From: DRGV01 sp018903055 [NCBI: bacterium]
GTDB taxonomy: Bacteria > UBP18 > UBA7526
DNA length: 25,862 nt
NCBI GenBank assembly: GCA_018903055.1
Contig: JAHIPW010000086.1
Location: forward strand, 1 to 25,862
Direction: 5' to 3'
Shown here: in pieces, positions 1 to 19,265 of the stretch
How positions within the stretch are numbered: the first letter of the stretch is position 1
Layout: the number at the start of each line of letters is the position of its first letter
Translations under genes and position numbers: made by a program
The notes under the pieces: model-generated
What the model was told of the DNA's origin: nothing
The model's database searches: none
The model's input: only the letters and a program-made list of their open reading frames with translations

Positions 1-1208
1 ACCTTGTCATTTAACTTCACTACTGGGATTGACCTCGCTCCCACATGCTGGGAAAGAGGAATTTTGACGAGATTCGTCCGATATTCTCTCTTCTCCAGAG
101 GAGCATCTACATTATACTCTTCTATCCCGATTCTTGAGATAATCCGCTCTGTGGGAACCCGGCGATACTCTATCATGGGATGGGCTTCCTCTGGCACCCC
201 TTTATGGGGATTCTTAACCTTGGCCTCTGTTAATTCCTTCTTAATCTCCTGATTTACCCTCAAAGGTGATAGACCAAAGGGGCAGGCATATAGATTACAT
301 AGGCCGCATTCTGAGCAGAGAAAAGCAGCAGTAATGTCATTCAGCTCCTTCCTCATCTCATACCCCACATGCCTCATTATCTTATGGGGTTTCAGAGAAT
401 GGCCGATTAAGTACCTGGGACAGAGCTCAGTGCAGTCAGTACACTGCATACAGAGCATAGTTCTGCGTAGGATTTTTCTCATCTCCAAGGTCTTGTTCAT
501 AATGACCTGATGGTCTTTGGGTAGAACAATCAATCCCGTGGTGGTCTTCATAACTGGGGAATCCAGATCCTCGATAAGTTTCCCCATCATGGGCCCACCA
601 TCCAAGATAGAAAAATCATTTATCAGGGGTTCAGCTAATCTTATTACCTCTCCCACACTCATCCCCACCGGAACCTTCACTGACTTCGGTTCCTTCACTG
701 CCCCGGATATTGTAAGATACCTATGAGTGACCGGTCTTCCTTCCATGGCATCTGTAATATTGATGAGGGTTCCTACATTATCTACTACTACTCCCACATC
801 AAGAGGAATCCCTCCTTCAGGGACGATCCTTTTTAATACCTCATAGACCAGGATCTGTTCATCCCCTGCAGGATAGAAATCGGCGAGGATAAATAACTGG
901 ATCCTGGATCCTGGATCCTTGATCCTGGCCTGTAGGGCTTCAAGGGCGGGTTTGTATTTTTCTTTGAGGGCAATGAATCCCTTCTTAGCACCGGTAGCCC
1001 CCATCACCAGTTCCAAACCCTTGATCACTTTATTCGCTTGAGAAGCCATTAATTGCTGATCGATGCGTAGGAGGGGCTCACACTCCGCACCATTGGCAAT
1101 GACATACTCTACCTTGGCCTCTAACTTCACGTGGGTGGGAAAGCCCGCTCCCCCTGCTCCCACCACTCCCGCATTCTTTACTTTATCAATAATTTCTTTT
1201 TTATTCAT
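1..1208 (-). CDS. pduS: PduS/RnfC-like flavo-iron-sulfur electron transfer protein, 3' end cut by window
   Basis: I translated this frame directly; it is open from an ATG at 1208 to the window edge, giving 402 residues. The N-terminus (residues 12-24) has the glycine-rich GAGGAGFPTH motif of the RnfC/NuoF-like NADH-FMN fold, and NGAECEPLL follows at about 40-47. Two ferredoxin-type cysteine clusters are visible: C253, C256, C259, C263-P and C298, C301, C304, C309-P, in the contexts CPRYLIGH and ACPFGLSP that are typical of PduS. The family is about 450 residues, so some 40-50 C-terminal residues lie outside. Known role: BMC-associated PduS binds FMN and 4Fe-4S centres and transfers electrons from NADH. 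With no B12 enzyme in sight, NAD+ recycling or export of electrons across the shell is more likely here than cobalamin reduction (inference). It lies downstream of the aldehyde dehydrogenase. Confidence 0.9.
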   Translation of the reverse strand, partial: MNKKEIIDKVKNAGVVGAGGAGFPTHVKLEAKVEYVIANGAECEPLLRIDQQLMASQANKVIKGLELVMGATGAKKGFIALKEKYKPALEALQARIKDPGSRIQLFILADFYPAGDEQILVYEVLKRIVPEGGIPLDVGVVVDNVGTLINITDAMEGRPVTHRYLTISGAVKEPKSVKVPVGMSVGEVIRLAEPLINDFSILDGGPMMGKLIEDLDSPVMKTTTGLIVLPKDHQVIMNKTLEMRKILRRTMLCMQCTDCTELCPRYLIGHSLKPHKIMRHVGYEMRKELNDITAAFLCSECGLCNLYACPFGLSPLRVNQEIKKELTEAKVKNPHKGVPEEAHPMIEYRRVPTERIISRIGIEEYNVDAPLEKREYRTNLVKIPLSQHVGARSIPVVKLNDK

Positions 1209-1242
1209 CCTTACTTTCTCAAGGGTTAGTAGGGGGAATAGG

Positions 1243-1392: not shown

Positions 1393-1412
1393 CCCTTGCC
1401 ACCCGTGTCATT

Positions 1413-2843
1413 TTAGGCTATGCGGAAGTAGTCTACTAAGACGCATCTTAATGGTCGAGTAAAGGTACTGGCCTTAGTCAAACCTTCCCCAGTAGGGGTG
1501 GCGATGCTCATGGTGGCATATCCCTCTCCCTCATAGCCCAACCCGGCATAGGAGGGAGCGTTCTTGACGAAGATGGAGACCTGGGCGGTTTTGGCCATCT
1601 TGGTCAGATTGGCCACATTCAAAGAATGCATGATGGCGGTATGCTTATTTCCCTGTTCCACTTCTACAGCAAAACTTATTGCCTCATTAACATCCTTTAC
1701 TCTGACAAAGGGAATGACGGGCATGAGCTGCTCTGTCCAGATATAGGAATGGTTCCTATCTACTTCACAGAATAAGAGCCTCACACTCTCTGGTACCTTT
1801 ATTCCAATCTTGGAAGCGATTAAAGTGGCATCCTTACCAATATACTCCCTACTCACTTTGGGCTCTTTTCCTGGCCCGCCTGGCTCCAGTATGACCGCCT
1901 TGGTTAATTTTTCAAACTCTTCCTTCTTTAATTCATAAGTGCGAGGATCTTTGCGCAATAGTTCTAATAGTCTATCGGCAATGGCCTCAACGGCAATGAT
2001 CTCCTTTTCTGCAGTACATAAGACACCATTATCAAAACTGGCTCCCTTTATGATGGAGTCGCAGGCATGTTCTAAATCTGAAGTTTCATCCACCACTACT
2101 GGTGGGTTTCCCGGTCCAGCAGCAATTACCTTCTTCCCGCAAGCCATGGCTGCTTTTACTACCGCCGGTCCTCCAGTAACCAAAATGAGCTTTATCTTGG
2201 GATGCCTGAATAATGTCTGGGCCTCTTCAATGGAGGGCTTGGCAGCAGTAGTCATTAGATTTGCTGGGCCACCGGCTTTTATGATTGCCTCATTCAATAT
2301 TTGAATGGATTTTAAAGATACCTTCTTCGCCGCTGGATGGGGAGCAAAGACCACGCTATTCCCGGCAGCGATGATGGAGATGCTATTATTTATTATGGTA
2401 GAGGAAGGGTTGGTGGAGGGAACCACAGCACCGATTACCCCAAAGGGGGCCATCTCCACTAAGGTTAAACCGTGGTCCCCGGTATAGGCTATGGGGTGTA
2501 GATCCTCTACCCCGGGTGTCTTCTGGGCAGCTAAGAGATTCTTCTGGACCTTATCCTCCCATCTTCCCATTCCCGTCTCTTCCCAGGCCAACTTAGCTAA
2601 ACTCTCCGCCTCCCTGATTGAGGCCTCCCTCATGGCCTCGATATACTTACTCCTCTTTTCCAGACTCTCCCGAAAGAGTTCCCTCTGGGCAATCCGTGCT
2701 GCTTCAATGGCTTCTTCCACATTGGGAAAGACTCCCAGGTCTCCCGCGCCTGCTTTTACTTCAGGAAGTTCGGCCTCCTTCTTCGTCATTCTCTCCACTA
2801 TTTCCTTGACAACTTCCTTTATTTTCTCTGGACTAATCTCCAT
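1413..2843 (-). CDS. CoA-acylating aldehyde dehydrogenase (PduP/EutE-like), BMC cargo
   Basis: This is a 476-residue aldehyde dehydrogenase superfamily protein that oxidises an aldehyde with CoA and NAD+ to acyl-CoA in the BMC lumen. Residues 5-20 (EKIKEVVKEIVERM) form an amphipathic helix followed by an acidic/glycine linker, the layout of a BMC encapsulation peptide. The Rossmann region has PSTNPSSTI, and the catalytic cysteine is about C276 in FDNGVLCTAEKE. The C-terminus PLRCVLVDYFRIA resembles that of PduP/EutE. I chose the ATG at 2843 because GAGG lies 6 bases upstream. An earlier in-frame ATG at 2870 would add nine residues (MHRSEARMT) that come from the intergenic repeat. Substrate chain length (acetaldehyde, propionaldehyde or lactaldehyde) cannot be read from the sequence. 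Its partners PduL, acetate kinase and PduS are all nearby. Confidence 0.93.
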   Translation of the reverse strand: MEISPEKIKEVVKEIVERMTKKEAELPEVKAGAGDLGVFPNVEEAIEAARIAQRELFRESLEKRSKYIEAMREASIREAESLAKLAWEETGMGRWEDKVQKNLLAAQKTPGVEDLHPIAYTGDHGLTLVEMAPFGVIGAVVPSTNPSSTIINNSISIIAAGNSVVFAPHPAAKKVSLKSIQILNEAIIKAGGPANLMTTAAKPSIEEAQTLFRHPKIKLILVTGGPAVVKAAMACGKKVIAAGPGNPPVVVDETSDLEHACDSIIKGASFDNGVLCTAEKEIIAVEAIADRLLELLRKDPRTYELKKEEFEKLTKAVILEPGGPGKEPKVSREYIGKDATLIASKIGIKVPESVRLLFCEVDRNHSYIWTEQLMPVIPFVRVKDVNEAISFAVEVEQGNKHTAIMHSLNVANLTKMAKTAQVSIFVKNAPSYAGLGYEGEGYATMSIATPTGEGLTKASTFTRPLRCVLVDYFRIA

Positions 2844-2865
2844 CGTCATCCTCGCTTCGCTCCGA

Positions 2866-2950
2866 TGCACGGATTAGCACTGATAATAATACAGATTAGC
2901 ACGGATTTAATCTGTGCTCATCCGTATGAAATCCGTGATTATCCGTGTCT
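2866..2950. repeat. Degenerate ATCCGTG / CACGGAT word array
   Basis: Variants of GGATTAGCAC and ATCCGTGTCTA fill the spacer between eutN and the aldehyde dehydrogenase gene. Overlapping reading frames here are repeat artefacts. The same words recur at 11845-11880, 12107-12131 and 16270-16378. Confidence 0.8.
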
Positions 2951-3239
2951 AAGACTTTCTGAATAAAACCTTTCCTTCGGCCTCGATGGTATCCACAATG
3001 GCCATAATTACGGCATCCGTGGGAGTATCCTTGGTCCTTATTGTCTGTCGAGCCGAGGAGCCTTTGGCGATCAAGACTACCTCTCCAATTCCCGCTCCCA
3101 TAGCATCGATAGCCACCAGAGGAGATCCCTCTTCTTTTCCTTCCATGCTTATGGGCTGGACCGCCAATAATTTGCAACCTTCTATCTTCTCATCCTTTAT
3201 AGTAGCCACAACGGTACCAATCACCTTAGCAAATATCAT
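2949..3239 (-). CDS. eutN: BMC vertex (pentamer) protein, EutN/CcmL/PduN family
   Basis: This 96-residue protein has the usual length and pattern of the BMC-P family. It starts MIFAKVIGTVVATIK, has LLAVQPI at about 25-31, then VAIDAMGAGIGEVVLIAKGSSAR at about 42-64 and TDAVIMAIVDTIEAEGK near the end. The GAGIGEVVL loop and the final AIVD helix/strand are family hallmarks. Pentamers of this protein cap the icosahedral vertices of the shell (established for the family). The start is well supported by AAGGAGGAG nine bases before the ATG. It lies between ackA and the aldehyde dehydrogenase gene, so shell and cargo genes are interleaved. It is the only vertex protein gene in the window. Confidence 0.96.
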   Translation of the reverse strand: MIFAKVIGTVVATIKDEKIEGCKLLAVQPISMEGKEEGSPLVAIDAMGAGIGEVVLIAKGSSARQTIRTKDTPTDAVIMAIVDTIEAEGKVLFRKS

Positions 3240-3320
3240 CTGTCTCCTCCTTATAGATTAGAGGTTTACAGTAACCATTTTACAGTTGACAGTAGAACAC
3301 TGTTCGCTGGTTACTGGTTA

Positions 3321-4526
3321 CTACTTTGTTTTCCTGATTACATCATAGGTATCTCGGGCAATGACCAGTTCCTCGTTGGTTGGAATGCAATAGACCTTGA
3401 CCTTTGAATTGAGAGCGCTTATCTCTCCCTCCTTCCTTATGGTCTTCTCATTTTTTTCCCTATTAATGATCACCCCTAAAAATTCCAATCCGGCACAACT
3501 CAAGGCACGAATTCTGGGGACATTCTCCCCAATCCCGGCAGTGAAGACGATGGCATTTACTCCTCCCATGGCTCCGGCATAGGAAGCGATATACTTCCTT
3601 ATGTGATAGGTGAATATTTCTATGGCCAATCTCGCTCGATCATTCCCCTTCTTCTCCTCCTCCAGGATGTCGTACATATCATTACTCACTCCGGATAGTC
3701 CCTGGAGGCCGGAATGAAAATTGAGCATGGTATTTATCTCATTTGCCGATAATCCCTCATTGGCCATGATATATAAGACGATGGCGGGATCGATGTCTCC
3801 GCACCTGGTTCCCATAACCAAGCCCTCCAGGGGGGTAAAGCCCATGGAGGTATCGATGGATACCCCACCTTTTACCGCAGCAATACTTGCTCCATTCCCT
3901 AAGTGACAGGTGATGACCTTTAAGTCTGTCAAGGGCTTATCCATAAGATGGGCTACCCTCTGGGAGACATAGAGGTGAGAAGTACCATGAAAGCCATATC
4001 TTCTAATTCCATATTTGCGATACTGCATATAGGGCAATCCATAGATGTAGGCATGTCTGGGCATGGTCTGATGAAAGGCGGTGTCGAAGACCGCTACCTG
4101 GGGAATCTTTGAAAGGAGTTCTTCACAGGCTATGATCCCCCTCAGGTTGTGAGGATTATGTAGGGGAGCAAGTTCTATACAGTCCTTAATATCCTCCTTC
4201 ACCTCTTCTGTAATTCGCATAGAGGCGGCGAACTTCTCCCCCCCATGAACCACCCGATGGCCGACGGCAGCAATCTCTTTCTTGTCTTTAATGACCCCGC
4301 TTTTGGGATGGAGAAGAGCATCCAGGGCCAACTTTATCGCCCCCCTGTGATCCAAAATCTCTGCTGCTATCTTTACCGGCTTCTTCTTCCCCATCTGATG
4401 GGTAAGGATGGCTCCGCTCATCCCGATACGTTCCACAATCCCCTTGGCCAGGACAGACTCCTTTTCAATCTCAATCAGTTCATACTTCACAGAGGAACTT
4501 CCACAGTTCAAAACCAGAATATTCAT
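3321..4526 (-). CDS. ackA: Acetate kinase
   Basis: A full-length 401-residue acetokinase. It has the N-terminal MNILVLNCGSSSVKYELIE phosphate-binding strand, GHRVVHGGEKF at about 108-118, HNPHNLRGI, FDTAFHQTMP, RRYGFHGTSH at about 175, and GNGASIAAVKGG with SIDTSMGFTPLEG. The C-terminal FTAGIGENVPRIR completes the ATP-binding site. The reaction is acyl-phosphate + ADP -> carboxylate + ATP, the energy-yielding last step after PduL. A propionate kinase activity (PduW type) is possible because the families overlap. No encapsulation-peptide-like extension is present, so it probably acts outside the shell. A GGAAGGGTGGG purine run precedes the ATG. It is separated from icd by a repeat-filled spacer. 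Confidence 0.96.
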   Translation of the reverse strand: MNILVLNCGSSSVKYELIEIEKESVLAKGIVERIGMSGAILTHQMGKKKPVKIAAEILDHRGAIKLALDALLHPKSGVIKDKKEIAAVGHRVVHGGEKFAASMRITEEVKEDIKDCIELAPLHNPHNLRGIIACEELLSKIPQVAVFDTAFHQTMPRHAYIYGLPYMQYRKYGIRRYGFHGTSHLYVSQRVAHLMDKPLTDLKVITCHLGNGASIAAVKGGVSIDTSMGFTPLEGLVMGTRCGDIDPAIVLYIMANEGLSANEINTMLNFHSGLQGLSGVSNDMYDILEEEKKGNDRARLAIEIFTYHIRKYIASYAGAMGGVNAIVFTAGIGENVPRIRALSCAGLEFLGVIINREKNEKTIRKEGEISALNSKVKVYCIPTNEELVIARDTYDVIRKTK

Positions 4527-4555
4527 CCCACCCTTCCTTTCATGAGATTTCTGAA

Positions 4556-4653
4556 AAAGTCAGCAATCTTTGATTACGGTGATTAAACTAAAGATTACAA
4601 CGATGAAATTGTCATCGAGTAATCACTGTCATCATTCTTTTGAATCACTGTAA
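4556..4653. repeat. Degenerate GATTAC / GTAATCAC word array
   Basis: The spacer between icd and ackA consists of short variants of TTTGATTACGGTGATTA and TGTCATC. This marks the downstream border of the TCA block, which has no such arrays between its own genes. Confidence 0.7.
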
Positions 4654-5967
4654 TCAGAGGTCTCTGGGCATTTTTCCAGAGACCTCTTTCATATTTTTAA
4701 TGAGAGCGTCACCATACTCAGAACACTTTAATTCTGTTGCCCCCTTCAGCTGTCTGGCCAGGTCATAGGTGACAAGTTTCTTTGATATGGTCCTATTTAT
4801 CGATTCCTTAATAAGCTGAGCAACCTCATCCCACCCCAGATACTCTAACATCATTACGCCGGATAGGATTAAAGCAGTGGGGTTTACTTTATCCAGACCG
4901 GCATATTTTGGTGCCGCACCGTGAGTTGCCTCAAAGAGAGCAATTTCATCACCTATATTTGCCCCGGGAGCCATCCCCAGACCACCCACCTGAGCAGCGC
5001 AGGCATCGGAAAAGTAATCGCCATTTAGATTGGGAAGAGCAAGGACATGGTACTCACTGGGTCTTAAGAGTATCTGCTGGAACATCTGGTCGGCTATTCT
5101 ATCCTTAATTATAATCCTTCCCCCGGGATCTCCGGATGGTCTCCCACCCCGCAGTTCCGCATAATGCCCTTCCTTCTGCACCGGGGTTACCCCATCTTCT
5201 GCCTTCACCTGATCCCAGAGCTCATCTTCGGTAATAACTCTATCCCGGAACTCATCTAGGGCAACTTCATACCCCCAGTTTTTAAAGGCCCCTTCAGTAA
5301 ATTTCATTATGTTTCCCTTGTGGACTAAAGTTAAGGATTTTCTGTTGTTAGCTACCACGTATTCCAGGGCTTTTCTCACCAGCCTTTTGGTGGCAAACTC
5401 GCTTATGGGTTTGACTCCAATCCCGGAATCACTCCTAATACTCACTTTCATCTCTTCTTTAAGGAAGTCAATAACTTTTTTTGCCTCAGCCGTTCCCATC
5501 TCCCACTCAATCCCGGCATAGACATCTTCGGTATTCTCCCTGAAGATAATTACATCCAATTCTTCAGGATTTTTGACTGGTGTGGGAACACCTTTATAGT
5601 GACGGGAGGGTCTCACGCAGGCATATAAATCGAGTCTCTGTCTCATACTAACATTTAAACTCCGGTATCCTCCTCCCACCGGTGTAATGAGCGGGCCTTT
5701 AATGGCAACTCTATATTCCCTTATGGCATCATAGGTCTCTTCGGGAAGGGGGTTATGGTATAATTCAATGGCCTTTTCGCCGGCAAATATCTCCAGCCAC
5801 TTGATTTCTCTCTTCCCGTTATAGGAAATCTCTACTGCTGAATCCCAGACCTTCTTTGAAGTTCTCATGATATCTGGTCCTGTCCCGTCTCCCTCAATAT
5901 AGGGAATTACTGGAGAATCCGGGACCTTTATTCTTCCATTCTCAAATTTTATCTTCTCCCCTTCCAT
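4654..5967 (-). CDS. icd: Isocitrate dehydrogenase (NADP-type, E. coli Icd family)
   Basis: A 437-residue decarboxylating isocitrate dehydrogenase (isocitrate -> 2-oxoglutarate + CO2). Visible motifs are [13 protein letters not shown] near the N-terminus and [19 protein letters not shown] at about 100-119, which includes the serine and arginines that bind isocitrate and corresponds to the phosphorylatable serine region of E. coli Icd. Others are [21 protein letters not shown], and [19 protein letters not shown] with the metal-binding aspartates. [17 protein letters not shown] keeps the Lys-Tyr pair, and VTYDLAR keeps the Tyr and Arg, that select NADP over NAD in the E. coli enzyme. The ATG overlaps the citrate synthase stop as TAATG, with AGAAGAGG upstream, so translation is coupled. 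No aconitase gene is seen in the window. No encapsulation peptide is evident. Confidence 0.96.
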
Positions 5968-7166
5968 TACCTCTTCTCCATGGGAATGTATTCTTGTTTT
6001 AAGGGACCATAGTACTCTGCTCTGGGGCGAAATATTCTGTTTTCCGGCATATACTCTAAGACCCTCGCTGTCCAGCCCGCTACTCTTGATACGGCAAAGA
6101 GCGGGGTAAAGAGCGAGGTCTCCAGCCCCAGTGCTTTGTAAACAATGCCGGAATAAAAATCAACATTGGGAAATATTCCTTTTTTCTCACCCAACTCTCT
6201 TATCTCCACTTCCTCTAATCTTTCAGCAATTGCCAAAAGATTTTTAATCTCTTCAGTGGTAGCTACTCTGTGACAATACTCTTTAAATATTCTTGCCCGG
6301 GGGTCATGGGCATGGTAAATGCGATGTCCAAAGCCCGGAATTTTATGGTGTAGTTTCCTCTCTCTTCCATACCATTCCTCCACATTGGAAGGTGTGCCAA
6401 TCTCCTGTAACATCTTTATCACCCTCTCATTTGCCCCACCATGCAAGGGACCTTTAAGGGAACCAATCCCTCCAGCAATGGTGGCATAAAAATCGGAAAG
6501 TGAGGCGTGAATGACCATGCAGGTAAAGGTTGAACCACTCATTCCGTGGTCGGCATGGAGGATTAGCGCCATATCAATGGCTTTAGAAATTTCTTCATCC
6601 ACGCCCCTCAACGAGGGGCGGGATTCATCTACTTCGCCAGTAATCATATAGACAAGATTTTCAGCATGGGAAAGGTCTTCCCGGGGTTCGATAACCTCTT
6701 TCCCTTTCTTTATCCTGCTTATGGCCGCAGTTACCGTGGCAATTTTTGATATAATTCTTATGGCTACTTCCTTTTCACTCTCTAAAGTAACCTTCTGGGA
6801 CTCCTTATCATATCCCGCCAGGGCCGCGACAGCACTCATTAACAGATTCATAGAATGGGTATCCTTGGGAAGAATTTTTATCATCTCAACTATGCCTTGG
6901 GGTATGGATCTGCTTACTTTTAATTTTTCTTTAAATCCATTAAGTTCGTCCCTTTTGGGGAGTTTCCCAAATAAAAGAAGGTAAGCGGTCTCTTCAAATG
7001 ATGAGTATTTCGCCAGGTCCTCAATGCTAATACCTCGGTAACAGAGCCTACCCTCTTTTCCGTTAACATAGCCAATCTGAGTGTTATTGACTATGGCCCC
7101 TTCCAGGCCTCTTCCAATTTCACATTTAATGGGAAATTCTTTTTTGCCAACAAAATCTCTTTCCAT
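5967..7166 (-). CDS. gltA: Citrate synthase
   Basis: A 399-residue citrate synthase condensing acetyl-CoA and oxaloacetate. Catalytic landmarks are [12 protein letters not shown] (the usual ADHxxxxSTF segment), GPLHGGANE with the first active-site His, [14 protein letters not shown] with the second His, and NVDFYSG with the catalytic Asp. I start it at the ATG at 7166, which overlaps the mdh stop (TAATG). An upstream in-frame extension to 7271 would only translate the end of mdh in another frame. It ends in TAATG with icd. Oddity: between TGEV and the LILHADH helix it has about ten extra residues (roughly [10 protein letters not shown]) encoded by a GC-rich palindrome that resembles intergenic repeats of this genome. 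2-Methylcitrate synthase is a possible alternative activity. Confidence 0.95.
6600..6629. repeat. Palindromic repeat lying in frame inside citrate synthase
   Basis: The arms CGCCCCTC (6602-6609) and GAGGGGCG (6613-6620) form a perfect 8-bp stem with an AAC loop, followed by GGATTCATC. The hairpin at 14419-14437 plus its flank (CGCTCCTC-TGT-GAGGGGCG-GGGTTCATC) is almost the same sequence, but in a spacer. On the coding strand the insert is bracketed by GTAGATGAA and GTGGATGAA. Confidence 0.75.
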
Positions 7167-8167
7167 TATTTTTTCCTGCCTCCTCGGCAGGTCGCCGATG
7201 AGGCGACCTTTCCTTTTCCTCCCATAAGATGAGCACTGGCTTCCAGTGCTATTTGTATTTTTTCCTTGCATATTTTGGCGCTCTCTTTAAGTGATGCCAA
7301 CTCAGGGGCTTTAAGTTTCAGTTCGATTATCTCCTCCACACCGCTACTCCCTAACTTTGCCGGAACCCCCATAAAAATGTCTTTCAGTCCATACTCTCCG
7401 GATAGATAACAAGAAGAGGGAAGTATTCTCTTCTTATCTTTTATGATTGACTCTGCCATATTATATACTGCTTGTGCCGGAGCGTAGTAGGCGCTTCCCT
7501 TATTTAAGAGGTTTACTATTTCGTCTCCCCCTTTTCTGGTTCTTTCGATTAATGAATCTATGGTCTCTTTATCCAGTAGTTCGGTTATGGGAATACCACT
7601 TACCGTGGTATATCTGGGCAGAGGAACCATGGAATCTCCATGTCCCCCGAGGACCAGGGCAGCTATATCTTCAGTGGAAACATCCAATTCTTCGGCAATA
7701 AAGTAACTGAACCGAGCGGAATCTAAGACTCCGGCCTGTCCCACAACTTTTTTCTCGCTGAAACTGGTAACTTTCCAGAGTAAATAACTCATGACATCCA
7801 GAGGGTTGGTAACCATAATGACTATTGAATCAGGCGAATATTTTTTTATATTCTTTGCTACTTCGGTAATAATAGAGGCATTTTTTTTGAGTAGGTCCTC
7901 TCTGGTCATTCCCGGTTTTCTAGGAAGGCCGGCAGTTACCACAACTATATCTGAATGACTTATCTCTTCATATGAAGATGTTCCTGCTATATGAGAGTCA
8001 AATTTTGCGGCGGCGGAACTTTCCGCTATGTCAAGGCCCTTACCTTTAGGTATACCGGGAAGAATATCCAGTAATACCACATCCGCCAATTCTTCTCTTG
8101 CTATAAGAATAGCGATGGTCTCTCCTACATGACCGGCGCCTATTATAGAAACTTTTGCCCTTCTCAT
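7166..8167 (-). CDS. mdh: Malate dehydrogenase (LDH-like type)
   Basis: A 333-residue NAD-dependent malate dehydrogenase of the LDH-like class. The dinucleotide fold starts VSIIGAGHVGETIA, with LLDI supplying the acidic residue that favours NAD. The substrate arginines are in GLPRKPGMTR, TNPLDVMSYL follows, then GVLDSARF with catalytic Asp and Arg, and LGGHGDSMVP with the catalytic His. I use the ATG at 8167, which overlaps the fumarase beta stop as ATGA; nine more residues from an ATG at 8194 would overlap that gene further. The last 15-20 residues (after about ASAHLMGGKG) look unlike the family and are encoded by two hairpins at 7175-7208, so the C-terminus appears lengthened by repeat DNA. 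It supplies oxaloacetate to the adjacent citrate synthase, or runs in reverse. Confidence 0.95.
   Translation of the reverse strand: MRRAKVSIIGAGHVGETIAILIAREELADVVLLDILPGIPKGKGLDIAESSAAAKFDSHIAGTSSYEEISHSDIVVVTAGLPRKPGMTREDLLKKNASIITEVAKNIKKYSPDSIVIMVTNPLDVMSYLLWKVTSFSEKKVVGQAGVLDSARFSYFIAEELDVSTEDIAALVLGGHGDSMVPLPRYTTVSGIPITELLDKETIDSLIERTRKGGDEIVNLLNKGSAYYAPAQAVYNMAESIIKDKKRILPSSCYLSGEYGLKDIFMGVPAKLGSSGVEEIIELKLKAPELASLKESAKICKEKIQIALEASAHLMGGKGKVASSATCRGGRKK
7175..7208. repeat. Twin overlapping hairpins at the mdh-gltA junction
   Basis: CCTGCC-TCCTC-GGCAGG (7175-7191) and GGTCGCC-GATGA-GGCGACC (7190-7208) are perfect 6-bp and 7-bp stems with 5-base loops, sharing two G residues so that the full stems compete. 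On the coding strand the GAGGAGG that serves as ribosome binding site for citrate synthase lies in the loop and 3' arm of the first hairpin, 8-15 bases before its ATG. The sequence also encodes the unusual MDH C-terminus. Confidence 0.75.
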
Positions 8168-8721
8168 TTTTCTTTCCTTTTGAATTTCTTCCAACCTATC
8201 CGGTAGAGGTCTTTACCTCTGGTATCGTTTATTACTACTAAAGGCATCTCTTCAACTTCCAGTCTTCTTATTGCTTCGGGCCCCAGATCCTTATAGGCAA
8301 TTATCTGGGAAGCTTTTATATATTGGGATATAAGGGCTCCAGCACCGCCCAAGGCAGCAAAATATAGGGACTTATTCTTTACTATGGAATCTATTACTCT
8401 CCTGGAACGTGGTCCTTTCCCTATCATTCCTTTCAGTCCTCTTTCCAAAAGTAGAGGAGTGAAAGGGTCCATGCGACAAGAGGTGGTCGGTCCGGCCGAT
8501 CCGATAACCATACCTGGTTTTGCCGGGGAGGGACCGCAATAATAGATTACACTTCCTTCAATGTCAAAGGGGAGTCTTTTCCCTTTCCGGATACTGTCAA
8601 CCAACCTTTTGTGAGCGGAGTCCCTGGCGATATAAATTATTCCAGACAACAGAATCTTATCTCCGATCTTTAATTTGACTATATCAGAATTTTTTAGGGG
8701 TGTGGTTAGTCTATATAACAT
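8164..8721 (-). CDS. Fumarate hydratase class I, beta subunit (C-terminal domain type)
   Basis: A 185-residue homologue of the C-terminal domain of iron-sulfur fumarase/tartrate dehydratase. It shows LKIGDKILLSGIIYIARDSAHKRL near residues 17-40, then YYCGPSPAKPGMVIGSAGPTTSCRMD at about 61-86 and MIGKGPRS, all standard for this subunit. It forms the two-subunit fumarase (fumarate + water <-> malate) with the alpha subunit encoded just upstream, whose stop lies 11 bases inside this gene. It ends ATGA with mdh. The substrate could also be tartrate or mesaconate by homology alone, but the neighbouring mdh, gltA and icd argue strongly for fumarate/malate. Confidence 0.94.
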   Translation of the reverse strand: MLYRLTTPLKNSDIVKLKIGDKILLSGIIYIARDSAHKRLVDSIRKGKRLPFDIEGSVIYYCGPSPAKPGMVIGSAGPTTSCRMDPFTPLLLERGLKGMIGKGPRSRRVIDSIVKNKSLYFAALGGAGALISQYIKASQIIAYKDLGPEAIRRLEVEEMPLVVINDTRGKDLYRIGWKKFKRKEK

Positions 8722-9559
8722 AACTCTTATGCCTGTGGGCGTGACACTCCATATTTACTGCAACCGGGAGGGTGGCCATATGGCGGGGGTATTCTTCAAT
8801 AGATAAATCCAGTGCAGTAACTCTGCCCCCAAGCCCGGCAGGACCTATCCCCAGATTATTAATTTCCTTCAACCACTTTCTTTCAAGTTCGGCAATCTTT
8901 TTATCCGGATTTCGCTGTCCGATATCTCTCAAAAGGGCCTTTTTTGCCAGATAGGCAACCTTTTCAAAGGATCCCCCGACTCCCACTCCTACAATTACTG
9001 GAGGGCAGGGGTTGGCCGAAGCAAGTTCTACTGTTTCTACTACAAATTTTTTAACCCCTTCAACTCCGTCGGCAGGTTTTAACATTTTAAGCCGAGACAT
9101 GTTTTCGCCTCCCCCGCCCTTTGGTACTACGGTTATCTTTAACCTATCCCCCTCAACTATCTGCTCATGAATTATCGCCGGGGTATTATCCTCACTATTT
9201 TTGGGGTTAGTCAGAGGATTTTTAATCATAGACTTTCTTAGGAAACCCGCAGTATAACCTTCACTTACTCCTTTAACTATGGCTTCTTCCAGTGACCCCC
9301 CCACAAACTTTACCTCCTGACCTATTTCTAGGAATACTAAAGCCAGGCCGGTATCCTGACAGAGGGGCATGGAATTTCTTGAAGCAATATGGGCATTTTG
9401 GATAAGCTGCTTTAATACCTCTTTTCCCTGCTGGGATTCTTCTATATCTATTGCTTTCTTAAAGGCTCTTATTACATCTCTGGGAAGCTCGGTGTTGGCC
9501 CTAATACATAAATCCCTTACAACTTCGGTTACCTTTTTAACGTTGATTTCTCGGCTCAC
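8711..9559 (-). CDS. Fumarate hydratase class I, alpha subunit (iron-sulfur domain)
   Basis: A 282-residue alpha subunit of the oxygen-sensitive 4Fe-4S fumarase. The three cluster cysteines are visible in NSMPLCQDTG, ASANPCPPVIVG and VNMECHAHRH; GGGGENMS and GIGPAGLGGRVTALD are also family motifs. I choose the GTG at 9559 (SREINVKKVTEVVRDLC), which matches the family's usual N-terminus and length and is preceded by GGGGGCAAAGG. Extending to an ATG at 9655 would add 32 residues (Arg-rich) encoded by an intergenic word array, which I regard as artefactual. The 3' end overlaps the beta subunit by 11 bases. It is the first gene of the TCA block and follows pduL. Confidence 0.93.
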   Translation of the reverse strand: MSREINVKKVTEVVRDLCIRANTELPRDVIRAFKKAIDIEESQQGKEVLKQLIQNAHIASRNSMPLCQDTGLALVFLEIGQEVKFVGGSLEEAIVKGVSEGYTAGFLRKSMIKNPLTNPKNSEDNTPAIIHEQIVEGDRLKITVVPKGGGGENMSRLKMLKPADGVEGVKKFVVETVELASANPCPPVIVGVGVGGSFEKVAYLAKKALLRDIGQRNPDKKIAELERKWLKEINNLGIGPAGLGGRVTALDLSIEEYPRHMATLPVAVNMECHAHRHKSYVI

Positions 9560-9569
9560 CCTTTGCCCC

Positions 9570-9660
9570 CGTTGGCTTGTCGCTCGTCGCCCGCTTCGCT
9601 TTATCGCTAATCGTTTCTTAATAATATGCGATCTGCGACCTGCGACATGCGACATGCCAG
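9570..9660. repeat. Degenerate CGACCTGCGACATG word array
   Basis: The spacer between pduL and fumarase alpha repeats the words GCGATCTGCGACCTGCGACA and CTTGTCGCTCGTCGCC. It stays open in the fumarase frame, creating a spurious N-terminal extension. It marks the upstream border of the TCA block. Confidence 0.75.
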
Positions 9661-9665
9661 ATATC

Positions 9666-10325
9666 TTAGCTTTTTATAATTTCTATCAAATCTCCTTGAG
9701 ATAGTTCAGCGGCATTGGCCTCATCGATGTCTATATGGAAATCTAATCTATGGGTTGGTCCGGATCTTATCATGACGTTATCGAATATTAATGCTCTCTT
9801 GCCTGGTACCTGCACCCTTACAATATCACCATCCTTTACTCCGAAACTTCTCGCTTCATCTGGAGACATGTGGATATGGCGTTGGGCAATAATTACCCCT
9901 TCTTTTAAGTCAATCTCTCCCTTGGGACCGATAATCTTTACTCCGCTCGAGCCCTTAACATTCCCCGAAATTCTCACGGGAGGTTTGATTCCCAAGGTAT
10001 AACTATCTGTTCTGGAGATCTCCACCTGGGTCTCTTTTCTTACCGGGCCCAGGATGCGCACCTTATCCATTCTTCCTTTTGGTCCCACTAAGATAATTAC
10101 CTCATTGGCGGCAAACTGTCCTGGCTGAGAAAGGTCTCTTAACTTCGTTAATCTCGCCCCCTTACTAAATAAGGTCTTTATGTCTTGTATGGTAAGGTGG
10201 AGGTGTCTATTGGAAAGACCAACTGGAATCTTGTCCGAGACTTTTAATCCACCACTTAATTTGCCTAAGACTTCCTTTACAATGGAACGGACTAATTTTT
10301 TATCATACACGTCTTTTTCTCTCAC
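9666..10325 (-). CDS. pduL: Phosphate propanoyltransferase PduL (BMC phosphotransacylase)
   Basis: A 219-residue PduL with both duplicated beta-barrel halves. PVGLSNRHLHL at about 34-44 gives the first zinc-binding HxH, QRHIHMSPDEA at about 149-158 the second, and HRLDFHIDIDEANA at about 192-205 closes the site. It interconverts acyl-CoA and acyl-phosphate and is the specific phosphotransacylase of catabolic BMCs. Residues 9-22 (KKLVRSIVKEVLGKL) are an amphipathic helix separated by a linker from the core, a likely encapsulation peptide. The start is uncertain: the GTG at 10325 retains the helix but has only a weak upstream purine run. Downstream it is separated from acetate kinase by the five-gene TCA block, which is unusual because the two enzymes act in sequence. 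Confidence 0.95.
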   Translation of the reverse strand: MREKDVYDKKLVRSIVKEVLGKLSGGLKVSDKIPVGLSNRHLHLTIQDIKTLFSKGARLTKLRDLSQPGQFAANEVIILVGPKGRMDKVRILGPVRKETQVEISRTDSYTLGIKPPVRISGNVKGSSGVKIIGPKGEIDLKEGVIIAQRHIHMSPDEARSFGVKDGDIVRVQVPGKRALIFDNVMIRSGPTHRLDFHIDIDEANAAELSQGDLIEIIKS

Positions 10326-10371
10326 TAAATCGTTAACTGTTGAGCGGTGCGCTTTACTTGCCCCGCTGATG

Positions 10372-10522
10372 AATAATTATTATTCAATTTGCCCGTCCCG
10401 ACATCCGTCGGGACTGTTTACCGTTTACCGTCTTTTACCGCCTCTCGTTTTCACTCGAGACTGGGCGATCCTGAATGAAATGAAGGACCGTAAACCGTAC
10501 ACCGTGAACCGTAAACCCCTTT
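10372..10522. repeat. AACCGTAAACCG word array with a GTCCCGAC palindrome
   Basis: The spacer between tpiA and pduL holds GTTTACCGTTTACCGTC and AACCGTACACCGTGAACCG variants. Embedded at 10395-10414 is a perfect 8-bp hairpin, GTCCCGAC-ATCC-GTCGGGAC, related to that at 22060-22078. The same AACCGTAA words recur at 19100-19262. Confidence 0.8.
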
Positions 10523-11287
10523 CTATCTTTTTTGTCTTTCATATTTAATGATCTGGGCAAAGGATCTGGCATCCAAGCTCGCCCCTCCTACTAAGGCACC
10601 ATCGATGTCCTTCTCCCTCATTAAATCAGAGATGTTCTCTGGCTTGACGCTTCCTCCGTACTGAATCCTAATCTTAGAAGCAGTAACCTCATCATAGAGC
10701 TCGCTTAAGAGTCTTCTAACGAAAGAATGTACCTCTTGCGCTTGATCCGGCGTGGCGGTCTTTCCCGTTCCAATGGCCCACACCGGTTCATAGGCAATGA
10801 CCATCTTCAATACCTCTTCCTTAGATAGACTCTCCAGTCCCCGAGTAATATGCTCCCTCACCACCCCTTCGGTCACTCTCCGCTCCCTCTCCTCCAACCT
10901 CTCCCCCACACACATTATAGGAGTGAGACCGAATTTTAGAGCGGCTTTTACTTTTCTATTCACTGATTGGTTTGCTTCACCGAAGAGATGCCTCCTCTCT
11001 GAATGGCCAATGATGACATACTGACAGCCCACATCAGTGAGCATTCCAGGTGAAACCTCTCCCGTATAGGCCCCCTTCTCCTCCCAGTAGATATCCTGGG
11101 CACCGAGAAAGATATTCGCTCCCCGAATGGCTTTACCCACCGCAAAGAGAGAAGTAAAGGGTGGGCAGGCCACGATGTCCACATCGTTGACTTCAGCGAC
11201 CTCGGACTTCAATTTAGTCACTAAATCCAGGGACTGGTCGATGGTCTCATTCATCTTCCAGTTCCCGGCAATTATTGGACGACGCAT
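10523..11287 (-). CDS. tpiA: Triosephosphate isomerase
   Basis: A complete 254-residue TIM barrel that interconverts dihydroxyacetone phosphate and glyceraldehyde 3-phosphate. It begins RRPIIAGNWKMN with the active-site Asn and Lys, has IIGHSERRHLFGE with the catalytic His, AYEPVWAIGTGKTATP with the catalytic Glu and loop 6, and the phosphate-binding YGGSVKPENI and GALVGGASL. The length is normal and no targeting extension is seen, so it is probably cytosolic. Its placement between the BMC-H shell gene and pduL is informative: it suggests that a triose phosphate is produced along with the aldehyde, as in aldolase-based microcompartments (inference). The ATG at 11287 follows an AGAGAGAG purine stretch. 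Confidence 0.96.
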   Translation of the reverse strand: MRRPIIAGNWKMNETIDQSLDLVTKLKSEVAEVNDVDIVACPPFTSLFAVGKAIRGANIFLGAQDIYWEEKGAYTGEVSPGMLTDVGCQYVIIGHSERRHLFGEANQSVNRKVKAALKFGLTPIMCVGERLEERERRVTEGVVREHITRGLESLSKEEVLKMVIAYEPVWAIGTGKTATPDQAQEVHSFVRRLLSELYDEVTASKIRIQYGGSVKPENISDLMREKDIDGALVGGASLDARSFAQIIKYERQKR

Positions 11288-11530
11288 GTACTCTCTCTTT
11301 TACGTTATACGTTGAAGGGTTGCGCTGCTCGTGTCATCTTGAGCAAATTGTAGCGAAATTTGAAAACAGTTGACAGAAATTTGAAAACTATAGGGAAATC
11401 TGAAATCAGCCCGCCCCGCTTCGCGGAGCGAGGCCGGGGAAAACTGTTTTCCGTTTTCCGTTCTCCCTACTGATTTCTGTTTTCTAATAACTGATTTCCT
11501 ACTCTCCTACTCTCCTACTCTTCTTCTTTC
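11288..11530. repeat. Spacer with a long dispersed repeat and word arrays
   Basis: The stretch 11355-11409 (GAAAACAG, TTGACAG, AAATTTGAAAAC words) is matched in inverted orientation at 25575-25635 over nearly its whole length. Differences are mostly AA versus CG dinucleotides, plus one 7-base TGATTTC insertion. Then come a GC-rich imperfect palindrome at 11411-11440 and CTCCTACT repeats at 11500-11520. No gene is seen. Confidence 0.75.
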
Positions 11531-11821
11531 CTACTTACCAGGTGTGATAGGCATTACCCCTTCCAAATCCGGATGGGGTCTGGGAATGACGTGAACGCTT
11601 ACCAGTTCCCCTACCTTCTGAGCTGCCGCAGCACCAGCATCGCAGGCTGCCTTGCAGGCAGCAACGTCACCCCTCACTAAGGTAGTGACATAGCCTGCTC
11701 CGATCTTCTCCCAGCCTACCAGTCTTACCTTGGCAGACTTGATCATGGCATCCGTAGCCTCGATAAGGGTTACCAGTCCCTTGGTCTCAATCATCCCCAA
11801 GGCTTCTTTTGTTTCTTCCAT
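11531..11821 (-). CDS. BMC-H shell protein (hexamer, Pfam BMC domain)
   Basis: A single-domain BMC shell protein of 96 residues, the standard size for PduA/EutM/Ccm[32 protein letters not shown] covers the first half, the pore loop reads EKIGAGYVT, then [39 protein letters not shown]. Hexamers tile the shell facets; the pore sequence resembles the PduA KIGSG loop with Ala in place of Ser. I start at the ATG at 11821, which has AGAGGAGGTG eight bases upstream, rather than 54 bases earlier, where the extra residues would come from the spacer. It is the first BMC gene in the transcription direction. No BMC-T or second BMC-H gene is seen in the window, so further shell genes are expected to the left. 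Confidence 0.97.
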
Positions 11822-12130
11822 TTTCTTCACCTCCTCTAATACACGGATAATCACAGATTCTTTACGGATGGTCACAGATGACTAAATGTAAAATAAAAAA
11901 ATTAAAGTGCCCTTAGAGATTGCAAGGCAATCTCAAGGACTTTAGTCCCGGAAATTCTGCAAATTTCTCGGGGCAAAATGACAAATTAAAAATTAAAAAG
12001 GAATCTCCTATAGAAGAGACTTTCCTGCCCCGATATTATTTTACAATGAAAATAATTTTACATTTTGATATGTAATTTTGATTTTTGATATTTGATTTTT
12101 AAATTTAAACTAATCCGTGCTAATCCGTGT
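11822..12130. other. Gene-free 309-bp AT-rich spacer upstream of the BMC-H gene
   Basis: It contains ATCCGTG words next to the BMC-H gene, copy 1 of a 63-bp two-hairpin element (11911-11973), long AAATTAAAAATTAAAA and TTTTGATTTTTGAT runs, and ATCCGTGT words abutting the GGDEF gene. I could not pick out a convincing promoter, although the BMC operon should start near here. Confidence 0.7.
11911..11973 (+). repeat. Two-hairpin palindromic element, copy 1
   Basis: Hairpin A: CCTT-(bulged A)-GAGATTGC, loop AAG, GCAATCTC-AAGG (11911-11938). Linker: ACTTTAGT, itself part of the small palindrome GGACT..AGTCC. Hairpin B: CCCG-GAAATT, loop CTGCA, AATTTC-(bulged T)-CGGG (11947-11972). Copies 2 and 3 keep the same bulges and loop sizes while the stem bases change in pairs. 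Confidence 0.85.
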
Positions 12131-13897
12131 CTATTTACTTTCAAAGAGGCAGACCCTATTTCTTCCCTCTCTCTTGGCACGATATAAAGTCTGGTCTGCC
12201 TGACCAATCAGTACCTCCTTGCGCATCCCCTTCCTATAACCTGCCACCCCAATACTCACCGTAATCTTAACCTTCTTCTTCTTTCCTTTCAGAAAGTCAA
12301 AATCCTCTACTTTCTTTCGCAGACGCTCTGCTAAGAGATAGGCTCCCTTGGCATCCGTCTCGGGCAGAATAAGGGCAAACTCCTCTCCCCCATAGCGAGC
12401 GGCGATGTCCGCTCCCCTTATCGCCTGCTGTAAGAGATGGGCAATATTCACTAGAACCGTATCTCCTGCCGGATGGCCATAGGTATCATTAAATCTCTTG
12501 AAGTGATCGATGTCTAACATGAGCAGAGATAACGAGGTCTCATAGCGCCTGGCCTTCCTTATCTCCTGTTCCAAATAATTCTGGAAGAAAGTATGGGCAT
12601 AGAGACCGGTCAAGCCATCGTGGATCGCCTGCTCATATAACATAGCGTTCTGGATGGCTATCGCTGCATGGCTTGCCAGGGTAGACAAGAGCTCCTCATC
12701 CCTTCTAATGAACGGCTGGCGGGAAACCTTATTGGAGAGGGTAATCACTCCTACCCCCTCTCCCTTGGCCACCAGGGGAAGAGCAAGTAAAGTCTCTGTT
12801 CTATGTAATTTCTTCTCTGTCTCCAGAGGCTTATAGCGCCGGTCTCTTAAGGTATCATTAATTACCATGGACTTTTTCTTTTCAAATACTTGACCGGCAA
12901 TCCCTTCTCCTCTCTTTAGTCTCAGACGCTTCCTGGCCTCCTCACTTATCCCTATACCATAAGCGATATAGAGCCTCTTTTTCTTCTCGTGCCAGAGCAT
13001 GAGGGACCCCTTCTCCACCTGGGCCACCTCCATGAATAATTCTACGATGAGTCTCAAAAGTTCTTCCTTCTCCATGTTGGAACTTATCTTTGTAGAGAGC
13101 CTTTGGAGCATCTGAAGATCCAGAACCCTTTGGTCAAGCTCCTCCTTTGCTCTGGTTAAGAGAGTGCTCTTCTCCTCAAGCGACCTCCAGCTTCCGGAGA
13201 GCCTCTTCCCCATCTGGTTAAACACCTCTCCCAACTCTCCCACCTCATCCCGAGAGGTAATCCTCACCCTGGCTTCCAGATCTCCCCTACCGATTTTCTG
13301 AGCAGCCTGAACCAACCTATTTATCGGTCGGGTAATGCTGGCTGCCAGGAGCAAGGAGATAACAATCCCCAGAATGAGCAGGCCAATGGTTAGAAGAAAG
13401 ATATGATCTCGAATCTCAGCAATTCTTGCTTTTAAGGGGATCGAAGAGAATCCCACCCTCACCAGGCCAATCCTTCTTTTTCCCAGAAGAATGGGAACCG
13501 CAATATCGTAGCCTCCCTCTTCTGTGATCTGTAAGAGGGTAATCCTTGCTCTCTGGGCTTTGAGGCTCAAGTCGTCCCTCAGGGTCTTGCTCACCAGGCT
13601 CTTATTCGTGTGGGCCATGACCTCTCCAATATCGTTTAAAATAATGACATAATCGATATCATCACCCTTCCTGCCTATTCCCTCCACTATCTGGGTCAGG
13701 GTGATGTAATCATTGGATAGGATGGCAGTGGTGGAGGTGGTGGCCAGAGCATTGGTAATGTCCTTGGCCCTCTTGATCATCTGGTCAGTGGCCGTTCTCT
13801 CCTCCCCCTTGAGAGTGACACCAACCACTAAGGACATGATGATTACGATGATTACAATCACAAATCCGGCAATCTTTCCTGCCAGAGAAATCTTCAC
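12131..13897 (-). CDS. Membrane diguanylate cyclase (sensor-HAMP-GAF-GGEEF)
   Basis: A 588-residue signalling protein. Residues 11-29 are a first membrane helix, 30-165 an extracytoplasmic CACHE-like sensor, about 167-187 a second membrane helix, 188-240 a HAMP linker, about 260-415 a GAF domain, and 425-585 a GGDEF domain. The active-site signature GGEEF is at 503-507, and the inhibitory RxxD (R494-D497) stands five residues before it, so both cyclase activity and product inhibition look intact. DGLTGLYAHTFF and LDIDHFKRFNDTYGHPAGD are also standard. It would convert two GTP to cyclic di-GMP in response to an external or redox cue. The start is a GTG with GGAAGGGCGGGG upstream. It lies just upstream of the BMC-H gene, but a 309-bp repeat-filled spacer makes co-transcription uncertain. 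Confidence 0.95.
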   Translation of the reverse strand: MKISLAGKIAGFVIVIIVIIMSLVVGVTLKGEERTATDQMIKRAKDITNALATTSTTAILSNDYITLTQIVEGIGRKGDDIDYVIILNDIGEVMAHTNKSLVSKTLRDDLSLKAQRARITLLQITEEGGYDIAVPILLGKRRIGLVRVGFSSIPLKARIAEIRDHIFLLTIGLLILGIVISLLLAASITRPINRLVQAAQKIGRGDLEARVRITSRDEVGELGEVFNQMGKRLSGSWRSLEEKSTLLTRAKEELDQRVLDLQMLQRLSTKISSNMEKEELLRLIVELFMEVAQVEKGSLMLWHEKKKRLYIAYGIGISEEARKRLRLKRGEGIAGQVFEKKKSMVINDTLRDRRYKPLETEKKLHRTETLLALPLVAKGEGVGVITLSNKVSRQPFIRRDEELLSTLASHAAIAIQNAMLYEQAIHDGLTGLYAHTFFQNYLEQEIRKARRYETSLSLLMLDIDHFKRFNDTYGHPAGDTVLVNIAHLLQQAIRGADIAARYGGEEFALILPETDAKGAYLLAERLRKKVEDFDFLKGKKKKVKITVSIGVAGYRKGMRKEVLIGQADQTLYRAKREGRNRVCLFESK

Positions 13898-18221: not shown

Positions 18222-19082
18222 CTATTTCAGGTATTTCCCAATAAGAAGTTCCAGTTCCTTCTTCCTCTTCTCTGGTATGGCCTCTTTCTGGGTGATGACA
18301 GCATTGGCTAAGGCAGTGGCACAGGGACACTTTCTCTTATCCGGTATTTTGGAAATAACCGCCTTCACCAGTTCCTTTGCTTTCAGGGTATTTGCCTCTA
18401 AGTTCTTTAACACGGTCTCAACGCTCACCTCTTCTGTTGTATGCCAGACATCGTAGTCCGTAACCAGGGCCACGGTGGCATAGCAGATCTCTGCCTCCCG
18501 GGCCAACTTCACCTCGGGGAGATTGGTCATCCCAATGACTTCCACTCCCCAACTGCGATATATCCTGGACTCTGCCCTGGTAGAGAAAGCGGGCCCCTCG
18601 ATACAGAGATAGGTTCCGCCATTATGTATCCTATATCCTAAGTCCTTGCCCGTTTCATATAGTATCTTGCTTAAGGTCGGACAGTAAGGATCGGCGAAAG
18701 AGATGTGGGCCACTAGCCCGTCGCCGAAGAAGGTAGAAACCCTGGTCTTCGTCCTATCGAATAGTTGATCGGGGATGAGGAAGTCTTGGGGCTTAATCTC
18801 CTCCTTCATGCTCCCTACCGCACTAAAAGCAATGATCCATTCTACCCCAAGAGATTTCAAGGCATAAATGTTGGCCTTATTATTCAATTCTGTGGGCATG
18901 ATCCTATGCCCCTTAGCATGGCGAGGGAGAAAGGCCACCCTCTTCCCTTCCAAAGTACCAGTGATTATATTATCCGAGGGCTCACCAAAGGGCGTGGAGG
19001 GTTTTACTTCCTTCATTTCCTCTAAGCCCTTGATATCATATAATCCCGTCCCCCCAATCACCCCAATCTTAATCTTTTCCAT
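18222..19082 (-). CDS. mtnP: S-methyl-5'-thioadenosine phosphorylase
   Basis: A 286-residue trimeric-type purine phosphorylase. IGVIGGTGLYDI opens the phosphate-binding site, LPRHAKGHRIMPTELNNKANIYALKSLG is the classic MTAP/PNP segment at about 52-80, and IEGPAFSTRAESRIYRSWG is followed by VIGMTNLPEVKLAREAEICYA. VTDYDVWH keeps the two Asp residues that bind the 6-amino group of adenine, favouring methylthioadenosine/adenosine over guanosine or inosine. It splits MTA with phosphate to adenine and 5-methylthioribose 1-phosphate. I choose the ATG at 19082, preceded by TTGGAGGAATAT, over an upstream TTG at 19100. Near a nucleoside importer it may serve purine salvage more broadly. Confidence 0.92.
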   Translation of the reverse strand: MEKIKIGVIGGTGLYDIKGLEEMKEVKPSTPFGEPSDNIITGTLEGKRVAFLPRHAKGHRIMPTELNNKANIYALKSLGVEWIIAFSAVGSMKEEIKPQDFLIPDQLFDRTKTRVSTFFGDGLVAHISFADPYCPTLSKILYETGKDLGYRIHNGGTYLCIEGPAFSTRAESRIYRSWGVEVIGMTNLPEVKLAREAEICYATVALVTDYDVWHTTEEVSVETVLKNLEANTLKAKELVKAVISKIPDKRKCPCATALANAVITQKEAIPEKRKKELELLIGKYLK

Positions 19083-19085
19083 ATA

Positions 19086-19265
19086 TTCCTCCAAATCCAA
19101 GTTTACCGTTCACCCGCTCCTCTCACCTTGTTCGTCGCTGTTTACCCCGCCCCTGCACGCAGGAGCGGGGTTTACCGTTAACCGTAAATCGTAAACCCTC
19201 TTCTTAATCGTATCACCGTTCACTTCTTTATAACCGTAAACGGTAAACCGTCAACCGTAAACCTT
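19086..19265. repeat. AACCGTAAACC word array with a CCCCGC palindrome
   Basis: Words such as GTTTACCGTTAACCGTAAAT and GGTAAACCGTCAACCGTAAA fill the spacer between the DHH and mtnP genes. At 19145-19170 is an imperfect palindrome, CCCCGC-C-CCTGC-AC-GCAGG-A-GCGGGG, of the same family as 14389-14437. Confidence 0.8.

Follow-up and report, generated by a model that had tools for sequence, protein, structure and literature searches.

A five-gene TCA-cycle block between pduL and ackA in a microcompartment locus of a UBP18 bacterium

The block and the compartment genes around it

The window is the whole stretch of DNA that we analysed, 25,862 nucleotides of contig JAHIPW010000086.1. It comes from a MAG (G000) belonging to the family of UBP18_UBA7526, and was compared with five UBP18 relatives (G001-G005). 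We found that fumA, fumB, mdh, gltA and icd form a single coupled unit on the minus strand, from 9559 to 4654, with pduL on one side and ackA on the other. The genes and features of the locus are as follows.

3..1208, minus strand: RnfC/PduS-like electron-transfer protein, truncated at the contig end (TIGR01945, 245.9 bits, marginally below the cut-off of 245.95)
1413..2870, minus strand: BMC-type acylating aldehyde dehydrogenase (NF011927, 665.4 bits, cut-off 403)
2949..3239, minus strand: BMC-P shell vertex protein (CcmL/EutN-like, below equivalog cut-offs; 95-96% to G002-G004)
3321..4526, minus strand: ackA, acetate kinase (TIGR00016, 518.9 bits; 86-91% to G002-G004)
4542..4688, no strand: right border, dispersed repeat of ~147 bp whose icd end has a 13-bp hairpin (75-91% copies in G001, G004 and G005)
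4654..5967, minus strand: icd, NADP-type isocitrate dehydrogenase (TIGR00183, 656.5 bits, cut-off 567.3)
5967..7166, minus strand: gltA, citrate synthase (TIGR01800, 444 bits, cut-off 421.3)
7166..8167, minus strand: mdh, malate dehydrogenase (TIGR01763, 440.7 bits, cut-off 351.85)
8164..8721, minus strand: fumB, fumarase beta subunit (NF005310, 271.8 bits, cut-off 238)
8711..9559, minus strand: fumA, class I fumarase alpha subunit, GTG start at 9559 (NF004885, 403.9 bits, cut-off 276)
9566..9652, no strand: left border, dispersed word repeat in the pduL-fumA spacer (83% copy at G001:C72, 80% copy at G001:C84)
9666..10325, minus strand: pduL, phosphotransacylase (NF011652 match from residue 33; 81-83% to four UBP18 relatives)
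10523..11287, minus strand: tpiA, triosephosphate isomerase (PF00121)
11531..11875, minus strand: BMC-H shell protein (PF00936)
18222..19100, minus strand: nucleoside-phosphorylase family gene (PF01048)

All five block genes had intact open reading frames and scored above their curated family cut-offs in a profile scan. Together with the flanking genes, these results confirmed the original prediction of a coupled TCA block between pduL and ackA. Its junctions were also as first described: fumA and fumB overlap by 11 bases (8711-8721), fumB and mdh meet in ATGA at 8167-8164, and TAATG joins mdh to gltA and likewise gltA to icd. Solved relatives include chains named citrate synthase and NADP isocitrate dehydrogenase. 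The block holds an oxidative TCA segment of intact fumarase, MDH, citrate synthase and NADP-ICDH. Aconitase had been noted as missing. This is true of the window, but elsewhere in the same MAG (G000:C84) there is an aconitase-superfamily gene, cut at the contig end, which matches families of the IPMD/homoaconitase kind best.

By its gene content, the compartment appears to be of the sugar-phosphate type, with DeoC, known from sugar phosphate utilization (SPU) BMC loci (PMC4207490, PMC8217296). The aldehyde dehydrogenase and PduL core of that type was present. As far as the available text of these sources describes SPU loci, this family of genomes resembles them in having a DeoC-type aldolase, RpiB, AldDH, PduL, TIM and an RnfC/PduS-like protein, as well as BMC-H, BMC-T and three BMC-P genes. 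The window itself encodes BMC-H and BMC-P shell proteins. PF00936 had only one match in the whole MAG, and BMC-T was seen only in the relatives. On another contig of the window's genome (G000:C109), deoC adjoins a BMC-P gene and is 83% to G004 over residues 34-276. An RpiB-type isomerase was at the same locus in G004 (family scan), G005 (tblastn) and G002 (reading of an open reading frame); tblastn did not find rpiB on G000:C109. The nucleoside-phosphorylase gene and the ABC-transporter-like genes at 21021-25439 (read from open reading frames) are a possible nucleoside supply line. Because the match of PduL to its family model starts only at residue 33, PduL is predicted to carry an N-terminal extension of the encapsulation-peptide kind.

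The pduL-ackA gap in related genomes

We found that pduL and ackA are neighbours without the block in G002, G003 and G004 (64, 100 and 101 bp from stop to start). G001 ends short of the site, and the adjacency expected in related genomes was seen in 3 of the 3 relatives showing both genes. These empty sites, from two genera, have the start of the spacer and the ackA leader in common. In the fifth relative, G005, sucC lies 20 bp past the pduL stop and is followed by sucD and a korD-like gene, where the contig ends; this island is seen on the pduL side only. Its sucC was unmatched in the other five genomes. TCA genes therefore sit at this gap in two genera (G000 and G005), with different gene sets.

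That a relative has another set of TCA-cycle genes at this spot suggests a repeated link between the pathways, and the gap seems to be a favoured site for TCA genes in this lineage. As a control, eight TCA queries were run against 10 non-UBP18 pduL loci, among them one of only 3.5 kb (L012) and one with deoC and rpiB like SPU loci (G034). None matched at E 1e-5.

Sequence affinities, codon use and borders of the block

The flanking proteins were 75-96% to those of the relatives, with a single exception at 59%. The products of fumA, fumB and mdh were 53-56% to UBP18 natives (fumA 53%, and 59% to G019). The icd product was 67% to G141 and G125, versus 42-43% to UBP18's own ICDH-like gene, and gltA had no match in G001-G005. 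These values indicate a foreign or deeply diverged block. Searches for a close donor, in 386 genomes each for gltA (best 54%) and icd (best 67%), found none. A viral carrier was also considered and set aside; fumA had no relative among the viral contigs.

Gene trees, proposed with the original prediction, were run for fumA, fumB, mdh, icd, gltA and the sucD of G005. With few outsiders, chosen by gltA/icd similarity, their sampling did not suffice to place the block. In these small trees fumA, fumB and mdh fell weakly beside UBP18 natives (supports of 0.83, 0.87 and 0.90, respectively) on long branches, and because of this placement ancient duplication may be an alternative origin for these three genes. 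Searches of the two MAGs with an island, G000 and G005, gave no native fum, mdh or icd, which suggests displacement: scattered native genes for fumarase, MDH and the ICDH-like enzyme seem to have been replaced by the acquired ones.

We found that the codon use of the concatenated block differs from that of the host (z -5.56). None of 108 five-ORF host runs scored as low, in a set that kept ORFs repeated between overlapping loci. The suc/kor genes of G005 gave z -7.17, and again 0 of 108 host runs were as low. In the window, all five block genes scored on the block side, icd barely, and the 18 other genes on the host side. Gene by gene, the codon evidence is modest. Among 174 host ORFs, picked mechanically like those of the five-ORF runs (at least 150 aa, non-overlapping, some of them spurious), 22 scored as low as icd, 19 as low as fumA and 16 as low as fumB. 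Two ordinary window genes were equally low, clp1 (16/174) and a gene for a 210-aa P-loop protein (21/174).

Repeat arrays were said to border a block that is itself free of them. The borders were as described, and both spacers match dispersed repeats of the relatives. The block is not wholly free of such words. gltA contains one hairpin word in frame (6602-6620), another is at the 3' end of mdh (7175-7209), ~10 bases or less from the mdh/gltA junction, and the right-hand repeat begins within icd, taking in its last ~11 codons and stop. In DNA comparisons of window positions 1-20000 with the relatives, the only match to block DNA outside the border repeats, among the matches listed, was to the native icd of G002, a stretch at 70%.

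Several further spacers of the locus match dispersed repeats too. Promoter-like sites were not in excess (13, versus 14.7 in shuffles). There were 16 terminator-like sites, versus 10.1 in shuffles, and 15 of them were on the plus strand, against the operon.

Taken together, the empty sites in three relatives, the codon use and the distant gene affinities support well the proposal that the block was inserted as one unit.

Possible origin and role of the block

We consider it likely that a TCA operon from a distant source was inserted as a unit into an SPU operon, is run with the compartment and replaced native genes. A fumA-fumB-mdh-gltA-icd operon of a distant bacterium would have entered between pduL and ackA of the UBP18 SPU-type BMC operon, and is probably transcribed together with the organelle genes. 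Judging from gene content, the compartment would convert deoxyribose-5-phosphate of scavenged nucleosides to acetaldehyde and glyceraldehyde-3-phosphate. The acetaldehyde would pass through acetyl-CoA to acetyl-phosphate, with ATP made by AckA. Outside the shell, the TCA enzymes would convert fumarate to oxaloacetate and, with cytosolic acetyl-CoA, lead toward 2-oxoglutarate and NADPH. Supply of biosynthetic carbon and reductant would thus coincide with the presence of the DNA-sugar substrate, and the acquired genes would have taken the place of native genes for fumarase, MDH and the ICDH-like enzyme at scattered loci.

The TCA enzymes had been described as lacking an encapsulation-peptide helix. 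We found no terminal extension beyond the homologues for fumA, fumB and gltA (judged by length and reading), but icd has ~10 extra residues, derived from the repeat, and mdh has a C-terminal tail of ~20 residues relative to homologues, which bears the hairpin DNA word. A location of these enzymes outside the shell fits their sequences. The further claim, that compartment acetyl-CoA is diverted to citrate, was unsupported. In the metabolosome model, CoA is recycled in the lumen and the exported product is acetyl-phosphate or acetate. Because of this model and the PduL extension, diversion of luminal acetyl-CoA is doubtful.

Our results might also indicate that a foreign TCA operon landed here and is functionally unrelated to the compartment. 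Other spacers of the locus match dispersed repeats, so that an insertion would require no special reason, and the TCA enzymes lack a targeting extension. However, the same gap holds TCA genes in two genera, and neither island-bearing MAG yielded native fum, mdh or icd; we regard this explanation as rather unlikely. Less probable still is that in the UBP18 ancestor the gap held a complete TCA operon, lost in G002-G004 and partly kept in G000 and G005. The identical site, the non-overlapping gene sets, the codon style common to both islands and the weakly supported placement of fumA, fumB and mdh beside UBP18 natives would fit such a history. It requires at least two losses, though, and the block's codon use has not converged on that of the host; moreover, the common spacer start and ackA leader look as if the empty sites of two genera had never been interrupted.

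An assembly or binning artefact, in which a stretch from another organism was misjoined at the two bordering repeats, seems very improbable. Assemblers can misjoin at dispersed repeats such as those at both borders, the codon use of the block is unlike that of the host, and the MAG consists of 191 contigs with 2.95% contamination. But two misjoins would be needed, both rightly oriented, the copies of the border repeat seen in relatives are only 75-91% identical to the window's, and G005, an assembly of another species, has TCA genes 20 bp after the same pduL.

Returning to insertion of a distant operon, we suggest only tentatively a broader extension of it: the gap would be a recurrent landing site at which a small-genome lineage re-acquires the TCA cycle piecemeal, with scattered natives displaced and central carbon metabolism controlled by a DNA-scavenging compartment. 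If two genera put TCA genes in one gap, this would count as genomic evidence for joint operation of an acetate-forming organelle with central biosynthesis. It would also be an example of how a small genome exchanges its scattered native enzymes for an operon that comes ready-made.

The BMC type itself is known (SPU), and the TCA block is the new feature. Unlike the SPU loci as presented in the available text of PMC4207490 and PMC8217296, the window carries TCA genes in the pduL-ackA gap. The main text of the 2021 catalogue does not contain the words citrate, fumarase, isocitrate and malate, and no BMC locus with a run of TCA enzymes was described in the portions of the literature surveyed. The original statement that no described BMC type has this arrangement fits that literature, with the qualification that MDH-family genes, with lactate/malate dehydrogenase domains, are reported in PVM and MIC1 BMC loci in the available text of PMC4207490. 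There, a single gene is considered for cofactor regeneration; in the window a TIGR01763 MDH gene is part of a coupled unit that also encodes fumarase, citrate synthase and ICDH.

Nearly the same genes lie close together in G019 (gltA-icd-mdh-fumA-fumB-sucC-sucD-korD) and similarly in G047 and G340. The order differs from that of the block, the gltA close to the G047 cluster shares only 28% identity with that of the block, and the window's BMC-H and BMC-P had no match within 15-20 kb around the three clusters. The 17-kb contig of G141 had no match to pduL or the shell genes, and identity between its citrate synthase and the one in the block is only 25%. It carries a row of citrate synthase, an aconitase-type gene, icd and ackA, with icd directly before ackA, as here.

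The compartment locus and the pduL-ackA site

The window spans contig C72 (25,862 b) in full. The compartment genes lie on its minus strand in this order:

BMC-H, tpiA and pduL, minus strand
fumA, fumB, mdh, gltA and icd (the block), 9559-4654, minus strand
ackA, BMC-P, AldDH and RnfC-like, minus strand

Gene junctions inside the block match the original prediction. We found that the block is an insertion relative to three UBP18 relatives. An uninterrupted pduL-ackA pair, which the prediction had proposed as a check, was present in all three of the relatives showing both genes (G002, DLMW01000011.1; G003, JAUWYL010000015.1; G004, JAUXAI010000002.1). The pduL stop and ackA start are separated by 64, 100 and 101 bp, respectively. 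These empty-site spacers have in common their start, next to pduL, and the ackA leader; the window agrees with them only in the first bases after pduL.

The site is occupied differently in G005, from a second genus (JAUWXM010000048.1). Here sucC begins 20 bp past the pduL stop, followed by sucD, a small ferredoxin-like protein (KorD-like) and the contig end. Both sucC and sucD exceed curated cut-offs; the ferredoxin-like protein hits the 2-oxoglutarate ferredoxin oxidoreductase delta family with a score under the cut-off. G001, from the window's own genus, had no pduL match (53% complete), and among the matches listed its similarity to window genes starts only at 14804. Outside UBP18, TCA genes were found by tblastn at 0 of 10 pduL loci.

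The compartment is of the sugar phosphate utilization (SPU) type, as described in PMC4207490 and PMC8217296; by the former, one Atribacteria SPU locus includes a TIM gene. Beyond rnfC, the operons of G002, G004 and G005 continue with BMC-T, rpiB, more BMC-P genes and deoC (G004 genes identified by family scans); the G003 set is rnfC, deoC and two BMC-P genes. The window's own MAG (1.085 Mb in 191 contigs; completeness 85.3%, contamination 2.95%) carries deoC, a BMC-P gene and glyA on another contig, C109.

Directly upstream of the BMC genes is a sensor diguanylate cyclase (12131-13897; Cache, HAMP, GAF, GGDEF), 80-92% identical in G002-G004 and diverged in G005 (59%, partial match). A CLP1_P (PF16575) P-loop protein at 14446-15687, whose family name derives from an mRNA cleavage factor, is conserved next to the BMC operon of G002-G005, and G001 has it too.

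Origin and codon use of the block

Across the family, proteins on either side of the block share 75-96% identity, with the single exception of the GGDEF protein of G005 (59%). Block genes are more distant from their UBP18 counterparts: 54-55% for mdh (G002, G003), 53-56% for fumA and fumB (G002-G004) and 42-43% for icd against the ICDH-like gene of G002-G004. gltA had no match among the five relatives, and G005 sucC had none in the other five genomes. The best outside identities were 67% for icd and 54% for gltA (386 genomes searched for each). Small trees, also proposed originally, gave a divided answer. Block icd grouped with three genomes outside UBP18 (G141, G125, G299), apart from the UBP18 gene; fumA, fumB and mdh leaned weakly toward the native genes.

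Native fumA, mdh and ICDH-like genes were found in 3, 2 and 3 of the five relatives, and every copy found falls within G002-G004, the relatives with the empty site. None was found in the source MAG, G005 or G001 (85%, 75% and 53% complete), except IPMDH-like genes at ~28%. Incompleteness could account for single absences; it is unlikely by itself to explain the absence of all three from the source MAG, where the acquired genes may have displaced them.

The codon use of the block deviates. In the suggested comparison, made leave-one-out against the window's other 18 genes, codon scores separated the five block genes from the rest, with icd and a 210-aa P-loop gene near zero. The numbers of UBP18 ORFs (of 174) scoring as low were 22 for icd, 19 for fumA, 16 for fumB, 9 for mdh and 3 for gltA; two ordinary genes of the window had low scores as well (clp1, 16/174; the P-loop gene, 21/174). 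Concatenated, the block scored below all 108 five-ORF runs. G005 sucC, sucD and korD are in the block's codon style (5, 3 and 5 of 174; concatenated, 0/108).

Borders and repeat words

As predicted, repeats flank the block: both spacers match the lineage's dispersed repeats, a trait shared with several more of the locus's spacers. The right border (4542-4688) is a dispersed, MITE-like element of ~147 bp that contains the icd stop and a 13-bp hairpin at the icd end. The four further copies inspected (two in G001, one each in G004 and G005) lie between ORFs or slightly overlap an ORF end. We ruled out the hairpin as a canonical terminator because a T-rich tail is absent in the operon direction. 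The block's junctions had been described as free of word arrays, yet the block does contain some of these words: hairpin words occur in gltA (6602-6620, in frame) and at the mdh 3' end (7175-7209). They apparently add residues to GltA and Mdh, leaving the proteins unbroken.

A possible role beside the compartment

The block is probably co-transcribed with the organelle genes, and its enzymes would be cytosolic, producing 2-oxoglutarate and NADPH alongside DNA-sugar catabolism. Metabolosomes hold a private CoA pool, with CoA regenerated by PduL. Glyceraldehyde-3-phosphate, via pyruvate, would therefore be a likelier source of acetyl-CoA for citrate synthase than the lumen. With sucC not found in the source MAG, current evidence makes its block a branch leading to 2-oxoglutarate and not a cycle.

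We found no description of this arrangement among the results listed for searches of open-licence papers on UBP18 and on BMCs in connection with TCA or SPU; UBP18 does occur in a sediment survey (PMC11920076). In G141, contig C68 has a close-packed row (7004-12937) of citrate synthase, aconitase-type large and small subunits (identity read from ORFs), icd and ackA, the last two overlapping by one base.
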